A DNA stretch of 20,561 nt from positions 1 to 20,561 of the IMG/VR virus record IMGVR_UViG_3300005062_000047; one strand, 5' to 3'. Shown one piece after another: positions 1 to 16,393 of this stretch. This stretch comes from a virus. The notes under the pieces are model-generated. The model was not told where the DNA came from. It made no database searches and was given only the letters and a program-made list of their open reading frames with translations. Within the stretch, counting starts at the first letter, position 1, and each line of letters opens with the position of its first letter. The position numbers were made by a program, and so were the translations under genes.

Positions 1-64
1 ACTGTAGAGTAGGAAAGAACCGCCTTACCGTCTTTCGATGGCAGGTTTGTCCAGTCCTCTCTCC

Positions 65-98
65 GAACCGTGCTTACCCCTCTCGAAGTACACGGCTC
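65..98 (-). ncRNA. Group II intron domain V (catalytic hairpin)
   Basis: This is a 34-nt hairpin with arms GAGCCGTG and CACGGTTC and the catalytic AGC triad near its 5' base, the canonical domain V form. It lies 29 nt behind the maturase stop. Domain VI follows in about 4-64 and should hold the branch-point adenosine, although I did not fix which A bulges. Confidence 0.9.
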
Positions 99-127
99 TC
101 CATTGTTCTTCAATTTTAGAAAACTCA

Positions 128-1918
128 TCATTTTGGGTGGTGAATATTTTGGTGGCACTGATGGCAAACAACAAGCGTTTTTCTTTTCTTTGAAATCATT
201 GCACGTTCCCAAAGTTCCTTACCTTTAAGGTCTTTTACTTTGTGAATATGGTGAATTTCATATTTTCCTGCGCCTGTTTTACCGCACAACTCACATATAT
301 CCGCATTTAATCGTTTATCAAAAGTGTTTCTGTTATAACCAATTGTAACTGCCGCTTTTGTTACGGTATCAGTTGCGTTTGCACTCTTGCAATTGGTGTA
401 TTTTGCGAAATACATAAGTTTCTTACCTGCTTTTGTTTCATAAGGAATAGCCCACGAACCTTTTCCGTCCTTAAATTTTTCCTTAATCTTCGTAATACGG
501 GTTTTGTGCTTTGTTGCCAGCGTTTTCAGACAACTATATTCCATTAAGTAGTTAAAGTAATTTAAGTCGCTAAAGTTACTTGCTAGGGAATAATAGTTGC
601 ATATACCACGTAGTTCGGCATTAAAAATGGTGATGATTTCCAAGTCTGTGGAGTTCCTTAGCGGCACTCTGCTAATCGGAAACATCTCATCGCATTTCTT
701 TTGCCTAACAATGCCTTTTGAAAACAGAAACTTGCTGATTTTATCCTTTGGTATGAGCAATTCCACTTTGTTGTTAAGTGTTCTTTGTGTGGGTCGCCCT
801 TTTCCATGGGGTTTAATCGAACTATTCCTGCGAATACTAACATCATAGCCGAGGAAACGTGCTTTTTCTGAACTGTGTGTAATAAGAGTCTTTTCATCAC
901 TGAGTTCCATTTTCAGCGTTCCACTGATAAACTCAGCCAGTTTTCTCTTGATTTCCACACAATCCTCACGGTTTCCCTTAACGGCGATTAGAAAATCGTC
1001 TGCATAACGAATATATTTGATTTTCTTATCGTCCTGCGGAGTATATGGGGTTTTCATCATTTCTGCTCTCACTTGTTTATATTGTTTGAGCAAGTTCTGC
1101 TTTTCTTCCCCGTCCGCACAATCAATCAGCTTTTTCAGTTTGACCCTCTGTGTGAACAAACGGTTATACTCCTTTGTCCTTACAGTTTCATTAGGCTTGT
1201 CAAATTCTGATTTCAGCGTCATCACAAACTTGTCCAGTTCGTGCAAGTAGATGTTGGCGAGCAATGGCGAAATAATTCCGCCCTGTGGTGTACCACTGTA
1301 AGTGTTGTTATACTGCCAATTTTCTACAAAGCCCGCTTTCAAAAATCTGTAAATTAACTTAATCAATCTTGCGTCTTTAATTTTCTGGTTGATAAACCCT
1401 ACCAATACGGCATGGTCGATATTATCAAAACAACCTTTAATATCTCCCTCAACAAACCACTTAGCCCCTGTAAACTCCTTTTTGAGAGTTGAGAGCGCCG
1501 TGTGGCAACTTCTTTTCGGGCGAAATCCATGAGAGCAATTTAGAAATACTGGTTCATACACTGCTTCCATGACCATTCTCAAAACTTCTTGGACGAGTTT
1601 GTCCGTGAAAGTTGGTATCCCGAGTGGTCGCATTTTGCCGTTTGCTTTTTTGATATAGGTTCGTCTTGCGGGCTTCGGCTTATAGGTTTCATCAGCAAGG
1701 GAAGCGATAATTTTATCTATCTTTTCCTTGCTGAACCCGTCTGCGGTGTCATTGTCAACGCCATTTGTTGCCGCTCCACTGTTGGCATACAAATTCGTAT
1801 ACGCCTCAAACCAAATGTCTTGACGCAAGAGGTAGCGATAAAGCCTTGTAAAGACTTCTTCGCTGTTTTTCGATGAATTTTCCTTAATTCTTGCTAAAAT
1901 TTCCATTGTTGGTTTCAT
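128..1918 (-). CDS. ltrA: Group II intron-encoded protein: reverse transcriptase/maturase/HNH endonuclease
   Basis: This multifunctional protein (596 aa; lactococcal LtrA has 599) helps its intron fold and splice and drives retrohoming. The reverse transcriptase domain covers about residues 60-370, with SHGFRPKRSCHTAL near 129-142, GDIKGCFDNIDH near 158-169, TPQGGIISPLLANIYL near 210-225 and the catalytic YADD at 305-308. A maturase (X) domain follows, with the family signature DLEIITIFNAELRGICNYY. The C-terminal DNA-binding/HNH region has zinc-site pairs CELC (542-545) and CHQC (585-588) around HH at 556-557. I chose the ATG at 1918 (MKPTMEIL) because it matches the LtrA start and has GGAGG 9 nt upstream; a longer in-frame extension to 2041 runs back into intron RNA. 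All catalytic motifs are intact, so the intron may be active. Confidence 0.96.
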   Translation of the reverse strand: MKPTMEILARIKENSSKNSEEVFTRLYRYLLRQDIWFEAYTNLYANSGAATNGVDNDTADGFSKEKIDKIIASLADETYKPKPARRTYIKKANGKMRPLGIPTFTDKLVQEVLRMVMEAVYEPVFLNCSHGFRPKRSCHTALSTLKKEFTGAKWFVEGDIKGCFDNIDHAVLVGFINQKIKDARLIKLIYRFLKAGFVENWQYNNTYSGTPQGGIISPLLANIYLHELDKFVMTLKSEFDKPNETVRTKEYNRLFTQRVKLKKLIDCADGEEKQNLLKQYKQVRAEMMKTPYTPQDDKKIKYIRYADDFLIAVKGNREDCVEIKRKLAEFISGTLKMELSDEKTLITHSSEKARFLGYDVSIRRNSSIKPHGKGRPTQRTLNNKVELLIPKDKISKFLFSKGIVRQKKCDEMFPISRVPLRNSTDLEIITIFNAELRGICNYYSLASNFSDLNYFNYLMEYSCLKTLATKHKTRITKIKEKFKDGKGSWAIPYETKAGKKLMYFAKYTNCKSANATDTVTKAAVTIGYNRNTFDKRLNADICELCGKTGAGKYEIHHIHKVKDLKGKELWERAMISKKRKTLVVCHQCHQNIHHPK

Positions 1919-2477
1919 TTTGAGGTTTTCCTCCCTAATCAATTTTGATTTTAGTACAGAACAACTGCGTCCCTTCGCCCTTATGACGGTGTTACCGTCC
2001 CTGACTACTACGAACGCTCCGTAACCTTGCGGAATATTCAAACCCTTAAAGGTTATAGCCTTACGGCATTTCCGTTTAGGTTATCCCCAGTTAGCATGAT
2101 GTGTTGGAAATTGTGGATTCTCGGTTTTGCTTTCGTTTCGTTAAAACAGGTTCTCCTGCTCGTTGCGCAAATTATTGATAACAATAAGGGTCAGGATACT
2201 CCCCTTATTTGTCTTTGCGCCATAGGTTTCAGGCACTTTCCTATGTCCAATCGGAACGGAAACTTGAAACTCACATTCGGTAAATATAACCTAAACCTTA
2301 TATCCACTTTACCTCGCAGTTCAGTCGTGTTATATTGCCTTAAACAACTTACTGCTTTCCTGCCATGCTCTGTTCCCGTGTCAGCTTTCGCCTTTCGGTT
2401 AGGCAGGTGGTTTACCGCGTTATCTTACGGTGTAGTTCCCACACTACAAAACAACATCATGCCCTATCTGGGCGCAC

Positions 2478-2904: not shown

Positions 2905-3336
2905 TTAGATTTTGCTGATCTCTTCATCCAGTTTTCTTTTCATCGCTTCAATGCAGGCATTTCGACTGGCTGATTTTGCCGGTTTCAAGAAAGGCTTGGC
3001 GAGCTGACCAGACTTTCCATACTCTAAGATGTTGGCGATCTTAGCATTTGACTCTCCGTCTTTTCTCGGTTCATCAAAGCCCACCTTCACATTGTAATTC
3101 CCATCTCGATCCACACCAGCAGGGGTTACACCGAGAGCATCAATCAGCTCTCCTGTGGACCTTGAGGTCAGCTTTGTGTCACTTCCAACGGTTGCCTGTA
3201 GATTCGCTTTCACTTTGGCTTTCACCACTTCGCCACCAGCTTCTAGGACCTTTGGAATGATTTCATCGGTCTTTTCTGCCAAGGTGGATACTTTTAAAAG
3301 AAAATCCTCTGGCATTTTAAATGAACAGCGTCCCAT
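2905..3336 (-). CDS. HK97 gp10-like neck/tail-assembly protein, with a start supplied by the RIT element
   Basis: This 143-aa protein belongs to the HK97-gp10 family, found at the head-tail junction in siphophages. The family features seen are a central variable region followed by ILEYGKSGQLAKPFLKPA (near residues 105-122) and a basic-acidic C-terminal helix. The gene is unusual at its 5' end: ribosome binding site AAGGAGG, ATG and the codons for G-R-C-S-F-K all lie inside the left terminal repeat of the RIT element (3317-3355). The native start (MARSSFK) is now separated by the element at 6850. From codon 8 on (MPEDFLLKV) the sequence is that of the phage gene. The spacing from GGAGG to ATG is rather long (12 nt). 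The reading frame is fully open, so the protein is probably still made. Confidence 0.9.
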   Translation of the reverse strand: MGRCSFKMPEDFLLKVSTLAEKTDEIIPKVLEAGGEVVKAKVKANLQATVGSDTKLTSRSTGELIDALGVTPAGVDRDGNYNVKVGFDEPRKDGESNAKIANILEYGKSGQLAKPFLKPAKSASRNACIEAMKRKLDEEISKI

Positions 3337-3355
3337 AATGTAAAGTCACCTCCTT
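3317..3355 (+). repeat. RIT element left terminal inverted repeat (39 bp, exact)
   Basis: These 39 bases recur exactly, inverted, at 6764-6802. On the minus strand the repeat reads AAGGAGGTGA, then nine bases, then ATGGGACGCTGTTCATTTAA, so it holds a ribosome binding site, a start codon and six following codons. At this end the codons run in frame into the gp10-like gene. Confidence 0.95.
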
Positions 3356-3362
3356 CAATGAA

Positions 3363-3395
3363 GAAAGAGCCTGAATATTTCATTCAAACTCTTTC
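3363..3395 (-). other. Hairpin between ritC and the rebuilt gp10-like start
   Basis: GAAAGAG at 3363-3369 pairs with CTCTTTC at 3389-3395. Inside is a second 5-bp stem (TGAAT/ATTCA) separated by a 2x2 internal loop. No clear U-run follows in the direction of transcription, so it is not a convincing terminator; readthrough from the rit operon into the gp10-like gene seems possible. It could instead be part of the recombinase binding region of the element end. Confidence 0.45.
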
Positions 3396-3409
3396 CATAA
3401 TATTTGAAC

Positions 3410-4429
3410 TTACTCCTTGCCACAAAGACCGATTAGCATCTGCATCAAAGATTTATCTTCAGTCCATTGTGGAAGGTCGGCGTCAATACGTATTTGTGCG
3501 GATTCAATAGATTTTCGCCGCATCTCAGTATCAGCTTTTGCGTAAACTTCGGTTGTTTCAACGTGCACATGCCCTAAAAAATCTCGAATGTAAATCATAT
3601 TAACCCCAGCTTGGAGTAAATGCATTGCTTTTGAATGTCGCAAGACGTGTGGTGAAATATTTTTAGGCAGTTCAGGATTAAAAATTCTGGCCGCATCACA
3701 GTATTTTTTAAGAATATACGCTACTCCTGCTCTACTAAGCTTATGACGTTGATGGTTTTGGAAAAGTGGATAATCACCTCTACCATTAGCTGTTAACCCT
3801 TGTTCAGTAATATATTCTTTAAGTAGCAATGCTGTACTTTCCATAATCGGAACAGCACGGGTTTTTTGACCTTTACCAGTTAATTTTACGGTGTATGGTT
3901 TTTGTATTCGCAAATCGTTGACTTGTATATCGCAGATTTCTTGAACACGTGCTCCCGAATCGTACATCAAACTCAAAAGTGCTCTGTCACGCCTTCCATA
4001 AGCATCTCTTGAATTTGTCTGAGTAATAATTGCATTAACCAACTTTGGTGACAAGTGCGCTAATAATGGAGCGGGTTTCTTTTTGAAGCGTAATCCGAGA
4101 ATTTTTTGATACTCAAAAATATACTCAGGTTTTTGCAAACTGGCATACCTTGCAAATGCTCTTATCGCAGAGAGTCTAATGTTTCGAGTAGAAACACTAC
4201 ATCCTCGATCATGCTCCAGCCAAGTAAGAAACTCTGAGATGAAATCAGCAGTGAAGTCATTTAGTGTGATTTTTTCAGGATTTAAGTTATGGTGCTCTGC
4301 TGAAAAAGACAGTACCAGTTTAAAAGTGTCACGGTATGACATTATCGTATTTTGGGAAAGTCCTGCTTCCCCGGGAAGGTACATTGTTAGGTATACTGAC
4401 AAACATTCCGCAAAATCGGTAGTTTTCAT
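3410..4429 (-). CDS. ritC: Tyrosine recombinase, third of the RIT trio
   Basis: This is a 339-aa site-specific recombinase (XerC/D type). The N-terminal SAM-like core-binding domain covers about residues 5-105. The catalytic domain has Arg161 (SGARVQEI), Lys186 (GKGQKT), the HVLRH box with His261 and Arg264, His287 (LGHVHVETTEVY) and the nucleophile Tyr296, so the whole active site is present. Its ATG overlaps the ritB stop as ATGA, meaning translational coupling. It is the last gene of the trio; the left end of the element begins 54 bp after its stop. Confidence 0.93.
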   Translation of the reverse strand: MKTTDFAECLSVYLTMYLPGEAGLSQNTIMSYRDTFKLVLSFSAEHHNLNPEKITLNDFTADFISEFLTWLEHDRGCSVSTRNIRLSAIRAFARYASLQKPEYIFEYQKILGLRFKKKPAPLLAHLSPKLVNAIITQTNSRDAYGRRDRALLSLMYDSGARVQEICDIQVNDLRIQKPYTVKLTGKGQKTRAVPIMESTALLLKEYITEQGLTANGRGDYPLFQNHQRHKLSRAGVAYILKKYCDAARIFNPELPKNISPHVLRHSKAMHLLQAGVNMIYIRDFLGHVHVETTEVYAKADTEMRRKSIESAQIRIDADLPQWTEDKSLMQMLIGLCGKE

Positions 4430-5429
4430 TTAATAATGACCTCCATTCCAGGAATGATGTATCCGTATTTTTCTTGCATCAGTGCAGAAATTTCAGGATA
4501 AACTTCTGCGGTCATCCGTAAATATTGTTCAGTAGCACTTATGTTTTCATGCCCGAGATACTCCCTAAGATATGGCAGTGCTGTTGTGATGTCATCGCCA
4601 TTTGCAGTCCATTTTTGTAAGCAATGAACTGCGAAGGTGTGGCGAAAGTCATGAATTCTAGGCCCTTTACCTCGACCACCATGATGGATTTGAGCTTGTA
4701 ATAGCAATTTGCGAAAAGTAGAGTAAACCGAACGATTTCCATAATAGCCTCCATCGCGTGAAGGCAAGAACCAATCATCAGTGTCACCAATCAGTCTCGT
4801 TTTAGCATACTTTGCACAAGCTGTTGTTAACTCTTCACAGACATCGGGACATAGCGACTTTTCCCAAATTTGCTGTCATGGATAGTAAGTATACCTGATT
4901 TTAAATCAATATCCTTCCCTCGAAGATGAGTAGCTTCTGATAGACGTAGACCGCAACAATACAAAAGTCGGAATAAAACAGGCATAACTAAATGCCTACG
5001 AGGAGCACTTGTGTTTTCGAATGGCTGCATAGAATCAACAGCATTAAAAAATCGATTAATTTCTTCATGTGTAAAGATATATGGTACAAAGCTCTTATGC
5101 AGTTTTCCAAGTTCAGAGCTTGAAGGGATATATGCGGCATACCCCATACGAGTCATGTATTCTGCAAACTGACGTATAATCGAAAATCGGTGGTAGCGAG
5201 TACGATCTGATTCCATCGGTCTTGGAGAAATCCACGCTTTTACAACTTCCTCTGTAAGTGTTTCTGAGGGGATATTGTAGTTTTCTGAGAACCGACTAAA
5301 TTCGCTGAGCCTTTCATCTTCAGATCTGTACTCATATCCAACTGCACGTTTTTCAATGATGAATGCTTTGCATATTTGGGCAAGCACACCGCTGTATGTG
5401 CATTCCAGTGGTTTATGAGAATTATTCAA
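4426..5429 (-). pseudogene. ritB: Tyrosine recombinase, middle gene of the RIT trio, frameshifted
   Basis: The region codes for one recombinase in two frames. The first part (5429 to 4827, 200 aa, TTG start with GGAGG 9 nt upstream, overlapping the ritA stop by 8 nt) has the core-binding domain, Arg162 (CCGLRLSEATHL) and the lysine of SKFGKSRYVPM. The second part (ending at 4426) carries IHDFRHTF, YLGHENISATEQYL and thus HxxR, His and the nucleophile Tyr. The frame breaks around 4836-4839, where the minus strand reads TCTGTGAAGAG; removing one TG gives TCT-GAA-GAG and an open frame through the junction. The whole span is 1004 nt, which is 334 codons plus two bases. This looks like a recent TG duplication. 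Neither fragment has a full active site. A sequencing error is the main alternative. Confidence 0.88.
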
Positions 5430-6660
5430 ATTTCATCACCTCCGGTAACGAAAGTGTACATTTTCGCAAGCCTTCAACATCAATTTTTAGATAAGGTGTT
5501 GTGGAAGAATAGCTTATATGTCCCATAATATCTGAAACTTCAGGAAGCGGTGTTCCTTGCTCCAATAGCCTTCGAGCAAATCCGTGTCGTAGCGAATGAA
5601 CTCCCTTTGTAGTACCAGAGGGCTTCGTTATTCCGCACAAGCGAGTATACTTCGTTAATATGGAACTTACTGACGTGGGTTCCAACTTCCTATATGGAGC
5701 ATTTGAGGTTAGAAATACGGAATCACTTTCAACAGTGGGGCGAGCATATCTTAAATAATCAATAATAGCCCAACCCACATCTTCACAAAGAGGGTGAATT
5801 AATCTTTTTCCCGTTTTGTGTTGCACTAGGTCTATCTCATTGCGATCCCATTTTAGTGATTCTAGCTTTAATCCAGCAATATCTGACCTCCTAAGTCCCA
5901 GCTGTACCACCAAAAGGATCACTGCATAATCGCGTTTACCAACGGGGTTTGTTCGATCAATACTTTTCATCAAGAGTTCGACTTCACTTTTTTCCCAAAG
6001 TGCGGGAATAGTTTGATTTTGTTTCACACTCACTTTGGGAACGCTTGAAGACCAGTCTTTAGCGCAGTAACTGTTACGAAAAAGAAAACGGAAATAATTT
6101 TTTAATGTGGAAAGCATATGTTGAACTGATGTTGTCGCACAACCTTGTAAGGAAAGTGTATAGTCAGAAATTATTATCGCTGATAGATCCGATACACCAC
6201 TGAGACCGCGAAACCCCATAAAATCATAAAATCTTTTGATATTGCGCTTCCGCAATGCTCTAGTGGACTCACGGTGATCAGCAGTTTGAACACCATTCAA
6301 GTAGGCATTGACAATTAGTCTATCCTGAAGATACCAGTCAGATTCTTTTTGTGATGACCATTGCCTACGAAAAGCACCAAACAATTGCATTTCACCTAAT
6401 CTTCGAACGCAGCGAACGGCTTCAAGTACTCTATCCGGCGTTCTTACCGGATAATGTGCTGGGTAGTTGAATTTTTCTGAAAGATACCGCGCCCCGATTT
6501 CTTCAGAGAAAATATCTTGATTTGTGGTTTCAAGAACGTATTCTAAAAACCATCGACAGTCTTTCTTAACATGCCTTATCAATGACTTGCTGTAGCCGAG
6601 TCGTTCCATTTCTACAATAAAGGCATCGATAAGTGCAGTTAGAGTTAATTTTCTTTCCAT
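5422..6660 (-). CDS. ritA: Tyrosine recombinase, first of the RIT trio
   Basis: This is a 412-aa recombinase with a long N-terminal region (about residues 1-215, including a core-binding domain near 110-200) and a C-terminal catalytic domain. Active-site residues are Arg257 (LGLRRSDI), Lys282 (QHKTGK), His355 and Arg358 (HSLRHGF), His381 (MGHISYSS) and Tyr390 (TPYLKID). GGGGG lies 7 nt before the ATG. Its stop overlaps the ritB TTG start. A TATAAT box in 6708-6713 (minus strand) may belong to its promoter, but I see no good -35. In RIT elements the three proteins are thought to act together; the separate role of each is not known from this sequence. Confidence 0.93.
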   Translation of the reverse strand: MERKLTLTALIDAFIVEMERLGYSKSLIRHVKKDCRWFLEYVLETTNQDIFSEEIGARYLSEKFNYPAHYPVRTPDRVLEAVRCVRRLGEMQLFGAFRRQWSSQKESDWYLQDRLIVNAYLNGVQTADHRESTRALRKRNIKRFYDFMGFRGLSGVSDLSAIIISDYTLSLQGCATTSVQHMLSTLKNYFRFLFRNSYCAKDWSSSVPKVSVKQNQTIPALWEKSEVELLMKSIDRTNPVGKRDYAVILLVVQLGLRRSDIAGLKLESLKWDRNEIDLVQHKTGKRLIHPLCEDVGWAIIDYLRYARPTVESDSVFLTSNAPYRKLEPTSVSSILTKYTRLCGITKPSGTTKGVHSLRHGFARRLLEQGTPLPEVSDIMGHISYSSTTPYLKIDVEGLRKCTLSLPEVMKFE

Positions 6661-6763
6661 GGTTTGTCCCCCTTTAATGGATTAGAAGTCACATAGACTT
6701 ACTAATAATTATACGGGATTATGGAAAGAAATTTTTCTGTTAAGCTTGATAGATGAACATTTC

Positions 6764-6802
6764 AAGGAGGTGACTTTACATTATGGGACGCTGTTCATTT
6801 AA
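6764..6802 (-). repeat. RIT element right terminal inverted repeat (39 bp, exact)
   Basis: This is the inverted copy of 3317-3355. Here the carried ribosome binding site and ATG point rightwards on the plus strand, away from the element, and open only a short dead-end frame (MGRCSFKM then stop at 6807-6809). The repeat is therefore useful for gene repair only at the end that faces the 3' part of the split gene. Confidence 0.95.
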
Positions 6803-6850
6803 GATGTAATGAAAAGCTTTCCATAACATCTTAAAACTTGATCTTGCCAT
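6776..6850 (-). pseudogene. Stranded native 5' end of the gp10-like gene
   Basis: The native ribosome binding site AGGAGG, overlapping the TAG stop of the head-closure gene, is followed 7 nt later by ATG and M-A-R-S-S-F-K-M. After codon 8 the frame enters the RIT end and stops after 24 codons. The other part of the gene continues from 3336 with the matching M-G-R-C-S-F-K-M. The shared TTTAARATG bases mark where the phage gene was split. A useless 24-residue peptide may still be translated here. Confidence 0.88.
6801..6832. repeat. Near-palindromic recombination-site candidate at the right RIT junction
   Basis: This 32-bp near-palindrome is centred on AAGCTT, with outer arms AAGATGT and ACATCTT and few mismatches. 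Inverted arms around a short centre are the usual plan of tyrosine recombinase core sites. It spans the boundary of the 39-bp repeat and the native gp10-like sequence. The left end lacks an equivalent outside its repeat. Confidence 0.5.
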
Positions 6851-14900: not shown

Positions 14901-15797
14901 TTATTTATATTCCCTTTGAGTTGAGTCCCAATTCTTCATGAATTCATTTTCCTTTATCACTGCTTGAAAAGGTGGATCGAGGAAAGAAATAATCAACTGA
15001 ATGACTTTCTCCAGATTTAACTCATATTTCAATACCTTCTTACAAAATATATCCCATCTATTACCAATCGCATCATTCATGATCAGCCTCTCAAGAACTT
15101 GAACTGAATCTTCCTCAATTGGTGTTCCCCTGCTTGAAAAGGTCTCATATATCGCTTCTTGGACTTTTCTTCCTTCAAAATCAAAGGAAGTCGCAAGGTA
15201 ATAGATATCATAAAAATCTTTCATGCGTCCTGTCGATTCCATGAATCGAACAATCGCATCAAGTTTTTCCGATATCGTTGATTCTAATGAATAGGTAAGA
15301 ATTGTTGGTTCTTCAAATCCATCAAGTAAAACAGGGAGTATTCTTATAAGTGGTGCTGGAACGATTGTATCTCCCACACCAAAATCGATACTGAATGGCG
15401 TTCTCGTTTTGCCCATAAGACCTATTAGATTTACGCGAATGCCGTGATACTCTTTTATCTCACTGATTGGTTCAACGCTTCTTATTTCAATTTCCATGAA
15501 CTCATTATCACTTTTCATAGTTATGATTGATCGAACTAATTCTTCTACTGAACTCAGCTCATTAGAATGATTCTTTAATAAATAATCAGCATCAACTGTA
15601 GGTCTTGTTGTGAAGTCACTGATTGAATATAGGAGAAAACCACCTTTGAGGATGAGCTGTTCTTTATAATGGCTTTGAGCCAGTCTTCTAATGAACTCTT
15701 CCTGAAAAAATAAATTCAATAGTTGTTGAAACGCGATACCTTCTGCTTTCGCTTTATTTTTTAATCTTGCCAGTATAGACGTACTTGAATAAGTCAT
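14901..15797 (-). CDS. abiEii: Type IV toxin AbiEii, nucleotidyltransferase
   Basis: This 298-aa toxin of the AbiEii family (DNA polymerase beta-type nucleotidyltransferase) blocks growth of phage-infected cells. It shows KGGF (51-54), the TRPTVDAD motif (64-71) with Asp69 and Asp71 as likely metal ligands, and the later EKLDAIV and GRMKDFYD motifs expected for the family. I chose the ATG at 15797, whose A is shared with the AbiEi stop (TAATG); an in-frame GTG at 15806 is possible. Coupled translation after the antitoxin is typical. Here it probably serves as a prophage-carried defence gene against other phages. Confidence 0.92.
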   Translation of the reverse strand: MTYSSTSILARLKNKAKAEGIAFQQLLNLFFQEEFIRRLAQSHYKEQLILKGGFLLYSISDFTTRPTVDADYLLKNHSNELSSVEELVRSIITMKSDNEFMEIEIRSVEPISEIKEYHGIRVNLIGLMGKTRTPFSIDFGVGDTIVPAPLIRILPVLLDGFEEPTILTYSLESTISEKLDAIVRFMESTGRMKDFYDIYYLATSFDFEGRKVQEAIYETFSSRGTPIEEDSVQVLERLIMNDAIGNRWDIFCKKVLKYELNLEKVIQLIISFLDPPFQAVIKENEFMKNWDSTQREYK

Positions 15798-16393
15798 TAT
15801 AGCCACTTCCCTATCTGCGATTGAACTTTTTTAGTGATGTTAAACATTTCAGCATACTCAAATAGACGTCTGATGTTTTTTTGTGGGTCTTTGGTGTATC
15901 GCATTACCGCATTGGTAAAAACTTCTTTTTCGAGTTTCTTTTCATAGCGCATAATATCACACATAGTACGATCCCGATCAAAAATTCTTACTTCTACACC
16001 ATTTATTTCAAAAGTTGTAACACCAATACTGAGAAATTTCGGTTCTTGGTAGTATGGTTCTACAAGTGGATAATCGATGTCATATTGGCTTTTTTCACTA
16101 TCTCTGTCCACTGCTATTTGCCACGCTGTTGGAATTCTATCCGTATAGAGATAATGCAGGAGTGCACTTTCGAGAAATATAACCGCTTCGGGAAAGAGTC
16201 TTGCTATCATTACTTCCTCTGGGTTCACTTCATCAGTGAGTTCATAGTAACCATACTTTATTTTTGATATTTCTCCTTCTTCAAAAAGCTTTTTAATTTG
16301 ACGACTATTCAAACCCAGTTCTTTCAGCTCCGATGTTTTCAATACACCGCCATGTTTTTTAAATTCATCTATTATTTTTTGTTTTTCAATCAT
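15797..16393 (-). CDS. abiEi: Type IV antitoxin and autorepressor AbiEi
   Basis: This 198-aa protein has an N-terminal winged helix-turn-helix (about residues 1-50; HGGVLKTSELKELGLNSRQI then a wing ending YYEL) and a C-terminal AbiEi domain with VRIFDRDRTMCDIMRY near 133-148. Family members counteract AbiEii and repress their own operon by binding inverted repeats in the promoter. It comes first in the operon, and its stop overlaps the abiEii start. GGTG lies near the ATG, a weak ribosome binding site. The promoter and operator candidate lie at 16411-16472. Base composition is more AT-rich than the virion genes. Confidence 0.9.
   Translation of the reverse strand: MIEKQKIIDEFKKHGGVLKTSELKELGLNSRQIKKLFEEGEISKIKYGYYELTDEVNPEEVMIARLFPEAVIFLESALLHYLYTDRIPTAWQIAVDRDSEKSQYDIDYPLVEPYYQEPKFLSIGVTTFEINGVEVRIFDRDRTMCDIMRYEKKLEKEVFTNAVMRYTKDPQKNIRRLFEYAEMFNITKKVQSQIGKWL

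Follow-up and report, generated by a model that had tools for sequence, protein, structure and literature searches.

Terminal repeats of a RIT element probably supply a replacement start to the phage gp10-like gene that it interrupts

Described RIT (recombinase-in-trio) elements carry three overlapping tyrosine recombinase genes on about 3.4 kb, are bounded by terminal inverted repeats with a palindromic end and insert in the genes of other mobile elements (PMC3414803, PMC10214605), in all of which they resemble the element considered here. Their inverted repeats are about 28-29 bp long with an overlapping palindrome (PMC3414803), and their target specificity is given as not having been tested formally (PMC10214605). 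Elements that give their targets a new N-terminus are already known from other groups: dusA islands (IMEVchUSA3) and SXT in prfC integrate within the 5' part of their target, to which they supply a new N-terminus with the frame restored (PMC8409611), and Tommasini et al. formulate it as a general rule that replacement sequence is usually present on attP (PMC10111431).

We considered a virus record of 20,561 bp, analysed over its whole length and called the window throughout, in which a RIT element, the gene that it splits and the stranded start of this gene all lie on the minus strand. The gene is HK97-gp10-like (PF04883; 2905..3336, 143 codons without internal stop, beginning MGRCSFKMPEDF at a start supplied by the element) and is found downstream of a Phage_HCP gene (7200-6862, minus strand), among head-tail genes. 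Its native start (6827..6850, ATG at 6850-6848) encodes MARSSFKM, a peptide that is identical in the uninterrupted relatives L011 and L013-L018, and is followed by inserted DNA, the gene being split after codon 8; a first-pass annotation had proposed this split and the stranding of MARSSFKM at 6850, and both are borne out by the coordinates and the translation. The next virion gene of the window carries a group II intron inserted after MATIGLD (1-2477, minus strand; reverse transcriptase at 128-2041, RF00029 at 4-100), such that two adjacent structural genes both host potentially harmless mobile elements. An AbiEii nucleotidyltransferase (PF08843, type IV toxin-antitoxin; 14901-16393, minus strand), with a probable AbiEi-like partner upstream, is also present amid the phage genes.

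The window element is about 3.4 kb long and encodes only the three recombinases, all of them Phage_integrase (PF00589) and on the minus strand: ritA (5422..6660, 412 aa), ritB (4426..5429) and ritC (3410..4429, 339 aa), overlapping by 8 nt (5422-5429) and 4 nt (4426-4429). The ritB gene is intact, with 333 aa, in three other copies described below (L003, L006 and L007) but is frameshifted in the window by a 2-bp insertion near 4836, and a residue-level check on RitC found the catalytic residues R161, H261, R264, H287 and Y296 to be invariant. The terminal inverted repeats, one facing the gene body (3313..3358, minus strand) and the other on the ritA side (6761..6806, plus strand), are 96% complementary and measure 46 nt, not the 39 bp first given for them. 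A 6-bp recombination core is found as AAAATG on the gene-body side (3313..3318, minus strand), where it forms codons 7-8 (K M), and as AAGATG at the other element end (6801..6806, plus strand); a further core copy (6827-6832), together with a 20-bp palindromic spacer (6807..6826, TAATGAAAAGCTTTCCATAA) made of two abutting inverted TTATGNAAAG-like motifs, separates the stranded start from the element. The filled site therefore reads: native start, AARATG, 20-bp palindromic spacer, CATYTT, repeat, rit genes, repeat, AARATG, gene. The spacer reads with the gene in the window (6807-6826) and in L007, and is inverted relative to gene and element in L003 (1035-1054) and L006 (2953-2972), which suggests that the circle or the ends undergo a further inversion. 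The adjacent and overlapping recombinase trio and the terminal inverted repeats with an adjoining palindrome, within a total of about 3.4-3.5 kb, place this element among the RIT elements, and its mobility is indicated by near-identical elements in unrelated phages and by an empty site.

Read towards the gene, the repeat at 3313..3358 contains a Shine-Dalgarno sequence, AAGGAGGTGA (3346..3355, minus strand), an ATG (3334..3336, minus strand) and the codons GRCSFKM, in frame with the intact remainder of the gp10-like gene, to give MGRCSFKM. The first-pass reading of a ribosome binding site, ATG and GRCSFK codons inside the repeat, followed by the unbroken gene, is confirmed by the 143-codon open reading frame (3336-2905); 12 nt before the supplied ATG there is a TGA in frame. 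The other repeat also has a Shine-Dalgarno sequence (6764-6773) and an ATG (6783-6785) reading outward, which are unused in the orientation of the window. The duplex of Shine-Dalgarno and anti-Shine-Dalgarno sequences in the window amounts to -18.1 kcal/mol for the supplied and -19.4 kcal/mol for the native start, and the overall range of pairing with the 16S tail is -17.2 to -18.1 kcal/mol for supplied against -14.5 to -19.4 kcal/mol for native starts, while two other RIT ends, the two tested, gave -1.5 and -3.6 kcal/mol. Among the eight repeat ends of the four gp10 insertions that we describe below, the Shine-Dalgarno match extends over 10 nt in six, 9 nt in one and 5 nt in one; among 95 other RIT ends, 5 have a match of at least 6 nt. 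Of positions drawn at random from the same contigs, 0.06% have a start within 65 nt that is accompanied by a Shine-Dalgarno match of at least 9 nt and opens at least 50 codons. The earlier suggestion that the repeat mimics the start of its target in both coding and translation signals is thus supported by the strength of the Shine-Dalgarno sequence, the frame and the native length of eight residues. A scan limited to the sigma-70 consensus detected no promoter-like site near the repeat facing the gp10-like gene; transcription would then have to come by read-through.

Using the repeat sequence to search IMG/VR, we recovered L003 and L004, the latter a near-copy of the window, and a search with RitA added L006 and one bacterial genome, in which the element occupies a prophage of Anaerotalea alkaliphila F-3ap (L007); the interrupted records are metagenome fragments and this one prophage, and are known here from sequence and not as plaque-forming phages. 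In the four insertions (window, L003, L006 and L007), the element always lies between codons 8 and 9 of the gp10-like gene, with MARSSFKM, MAKATFKM, MASSSYKM and MARGSYKM, respectively, as stranded starts and MGRCSFKM as the replacement in 4/4. The element genes are 93.8-99.4% identical across the four insertions and the neighbouring genes as low as 60%; for the three phage copies the corresponding values are 97.4-99.4% and 60-77%, and L003 and L006 have element genes that are 99.4% identical beside gp10 and upstream genes that are about 61% identical. As the element genes are near-identical while their flanks diverge, the insertions arose separately, and, since the four copies share one repeat sequence, they represent four independent tests of the site but not of the repeat. 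The rit genes of L007 run opposite to the gp10 gene, and here it is the ritA-side repeat, equivalent to the one unused in the window, that provides the start, as expected if both of the identical repeats bear starts.

An empty site is available in L044, which aligns with L006 on both sides, upstream over 2024 bp at 99.80% identity and downstream over 754 bp at 99.87%; in L044 these alignments share exactly 6 bp (positions 2019-2024), which correspond to AAAATG, codons 7-8. As judged from these alignments, the only change between the empty and the filled site is the element and a 6-bp duplication of AAAATG. The end sequence of the repeat was found in IMG/VR solely at these gp10-like insertions and, in two samples of about 390 genomes each, drawn from the class and the order of the prophage host, only at the one prophage insertion; we looked in these collections for the same ends in unrelated targets and there were none, all copies sitting at one codon.

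The relatives of the gp10-like gene indicate why this site may be suitable. Across the protein family, codon 8 hardly varies and codon 7 is mostly Lys, which makes codons 7-8 a fitting target, and relatives of 50-95% identity keep an N-terminal length of eight residues, exactly that of MGRCSFKM. Two overlapping lists of 80 IMG/VR homologues show a native start that is typically M/V-A-[RK]-x-x-x-K-M and confine MGRCSFKM to RIT carriers; no uninterrupted relative in these lists already begins with it, the nearest being L077 with MGRCSVKM. In the predicted structure of the protein (mean pLDDT 67, moderate), residues 3-6 form a short strand and a helix begins at residue 10. The body of the gene has dN/dS values of 0.02-0.05 in comparisons including interrupted copies, although much of the divergence in most comparisons may predate insertion, and there are zero changes between L006 and L044; on this evidence the gene is under strong purifying selection, part of the divergence being possibly older than the insertion.

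Taken together, these data make it very likely that we are dealing with a RIT lineage specialised for one site, the AARATG that encodes the conserved Lys7-Met8 in HK97-gp10-like genes of phages, and that both repeats of the element supply a replacement start and leave a working protein with an altered N-terminus. The recombinases would exchange the 6-bp core at codons 7-8, and the native eight-codon start would consequently be left on one side. The repeats would serve both as DNA presumably bound by the recombinases and as an outward-reading ribosome binding site, ATG and codons, so that the supplied start would enter the gene at the exact native length, eight residues before Pro9, and, since both repeats carry it, in either orientation of insertion. 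The phage would then keep a functional gp10-like protein with MGRCSFKM instead of, for instance, MARSSFKM, expressed by transcription of the phage operon reading through the 3.4-kb element. Within this proposal, the site, the core, the frame, the supplied start, the two orientations, the repeated independent insertion and the purifying selection are read directly from the sequences. Translation from the supplied ATG and viability of the phage are suggested by the purifying selection and by L077, with the reservation that codon 8 is itself an ATG, where initiation could in principle take place; transcriptional read-through and the function of the altered protein and of the virion are presumed.

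L077, a fragment of a 32-kb IMG/VR contig, bears on the alternatives. It has no element, and its gp10-like gene begins GGAGGTGACTTGGCATTATGGGACGCTGCTCAGTTAAAATGCC, a start that is identical at 39 of 43 nt to the repeat junction and is placed directly before AAAATG. Just upstream there is a vestigial GTGGCTAAAGCAGAA that runs into a stop after a few codons; the native start of L262 (VAKAEFKM) has the identical sequence. We regard L077 as a likely relic, in which a RIT element was once present and then deleted and the gene still uses the leftover start; as it keeps a repeat-derived start without the element, the supplied start probably works alone. Two other candidates for such a start were discarded, L104, whose match to the MGRC...KM DNA pattern is a chance match in an unrelated open reading frame, and L288, which begins MGKVQIQM and is unrelated to the repeat.

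The same record provides the argument for a passive resemblance, in which the repeat would be a gp10 gene start captured from an L077-like donor and kept as recombination homology, unselected as a start, since the uninterrupted L077 gene has nearly the same start and upstream bases. We consider this unlikely: a donor would have no need of the vestigial native start upstream, which this weaker reading of L077 leaves unexplained, the Shine-Dalgarno sequence is still strong in nearly all copies, and other RIT elements have, at their ends, TTATGNAAAG-like motifs with which the inner and outer motifs of the repeat align, such that the repeat resembles a RIT end that has been modified. Less probable again is a regulated excision on prophage induction that would restore the native gene, as in helper-embedded PICIs and skin-like elements, the supplied start being incidental; the 6-bp cores on both sides would permit precise excision, and helper-embedded PICIs in prophage late genes have been proposed to act so (PMC10111431), but these are without replacement sequence whereas the RIT element has one in both ends, L077 retains the supplied start without the element, and the window has an intact gp10 despite a frameshifted ritB, which makes excision by its own recombinase trio doubtful. 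That the phages are defunct and the open frame a leftover of decay, as the intron in the next gene and the frameshifted ritB of the window might suggest, is highly improbable, since the same arrangement recurs in four separate contexts, always with an intact gp10 and open neighbouring head-tail genes, and group II introns can splice out.

The replacement start that we propose was then compared with the ends of other RIT elements, from Bacillota genomes and phage records, delimited by their inverted repeats with automatic, ungapped end calling. An end was scored when, read outward, it presented a Shine-Dalgarno sequence, a start and at least 50 open codons, and 12 elements whose ends were called wrongly or ambiguously by the script were left out. 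Flanks were usable for 58 elements (103 distinct ends). The four gp10 insertions score, at position -24, and of the approximately 54 others only L179 and L182, both human faecal phage records, carry a comparable start; both are single copies and our case does not rest on them. In L179 (around 366-443 and 3790-3850), a C5 DNA methyltransferase is interrupted at the ENVP motif by a RIT element, both repeats of which carry a Shine-Dalgarno sequence and TTG reading outward, possibly giving a separate C-terminal half; in L182 (1311-1652, minus strand), the element is in a DUF3846 gene, and the frame opened by the Shine-Dalgarno sequence and ATG of its repeat continues across the repeat and the spacer to join the gene, taking the place of the N-terminal portion of the DUF3846 domain.

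Other RIT elements have the same layout with a 6-bp core of their own, for example TTCCCC/GGGGAA in the IS21 istB gene of L108, with TTATGNAAAG-like motifs beside the core. Those inside other mobile genes (L106, L108, L148, L152, L153; L146, L147, L150, L188; L202, L216; L195) hit the IS21 istB P-loop, the PQGG motif of group II intron reverse transcriptases, LRHSKAMH/LRHTRS of tyrosine recombinases and the ParA Walker motif; from these sites, RIT elements seem to select the codons of conserved motifs in other mobile genes. A further set is sited at the extreme 3' end of phage portal genes (...DAGA or similar; L167, L203, L206, L208, L212, L213, L214, L217 and L218), where in 9/9 records, a count that includes a duplicate as L167 and L203 appear to be one insertion, the repeat extends the gene by YV[EK] or NVK and closes it with a TAA stop; this other lineage thus gives its gene an end rather than a start. 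Phage-dwelling RIT elements may have evolved recombinase-binding ends that double as the ends of essential virion genes, a gp10-like start in one lineage and a portal stop with a new C-terminus in another, with transposon ends, coding sequence and translation signals being the same bases, a generalisation to which we would give about an even chance.

A literature search found no description of RIT ends acting as gene starts or of transposon repeats providing start codons, in line with the first-pass annotation, which knew of none for RIT ends; Ricker et al. 2013 (Plasmid), the main RIT paper, may note something similar. What appears to be new is that both inverted repeats contain a start, that this start serves in either orientation, that the target is an essential-type phage gene, and that there is a probable relic. 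A transposon-like element could in this way make an essential-type viral gene a safe home by carrying a replacement for the part that it removes, independently of orientation. For one RIT lineage the target site, the 6-bp core and the empty site are now defined, and MGRCSF N-terminal peptides are predicted.

Compared with the RIT elements described so far, this lineage is distinguished by a single phage-gene site and by ends that encode a gene start. Strand-biased circularizing elements, GInts and Tn554 likewise have several tyrosine recombinases or related proteins, and the ends of the strand-biased elements and of Tn554 bear a core or footprint of 6 bp, but they have other gene sets and no gene-start function is described for them in PMC10214605. 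Helper-embedded PICIs repeatedly target prophage late genes (PMC10111431), and the RIT element likewise lies in one; they disrupt the gene until excision, bring no replacement sequence and encode a single integrase with AlpA and a primase, in contrast to the recombinase trio and replacement start found here. The closest functional parallel is with the dusA islands and SXT, which like the RIT element provide a replacement start codon and N-terminal codons in frame; these are large, reside in housekeeping genes, bring a promoter and use one fixed end, whereas the RIT element carries the start in both inverted repeats, can use it in either orientation, has no evident promoter and targets a phage structural gene.
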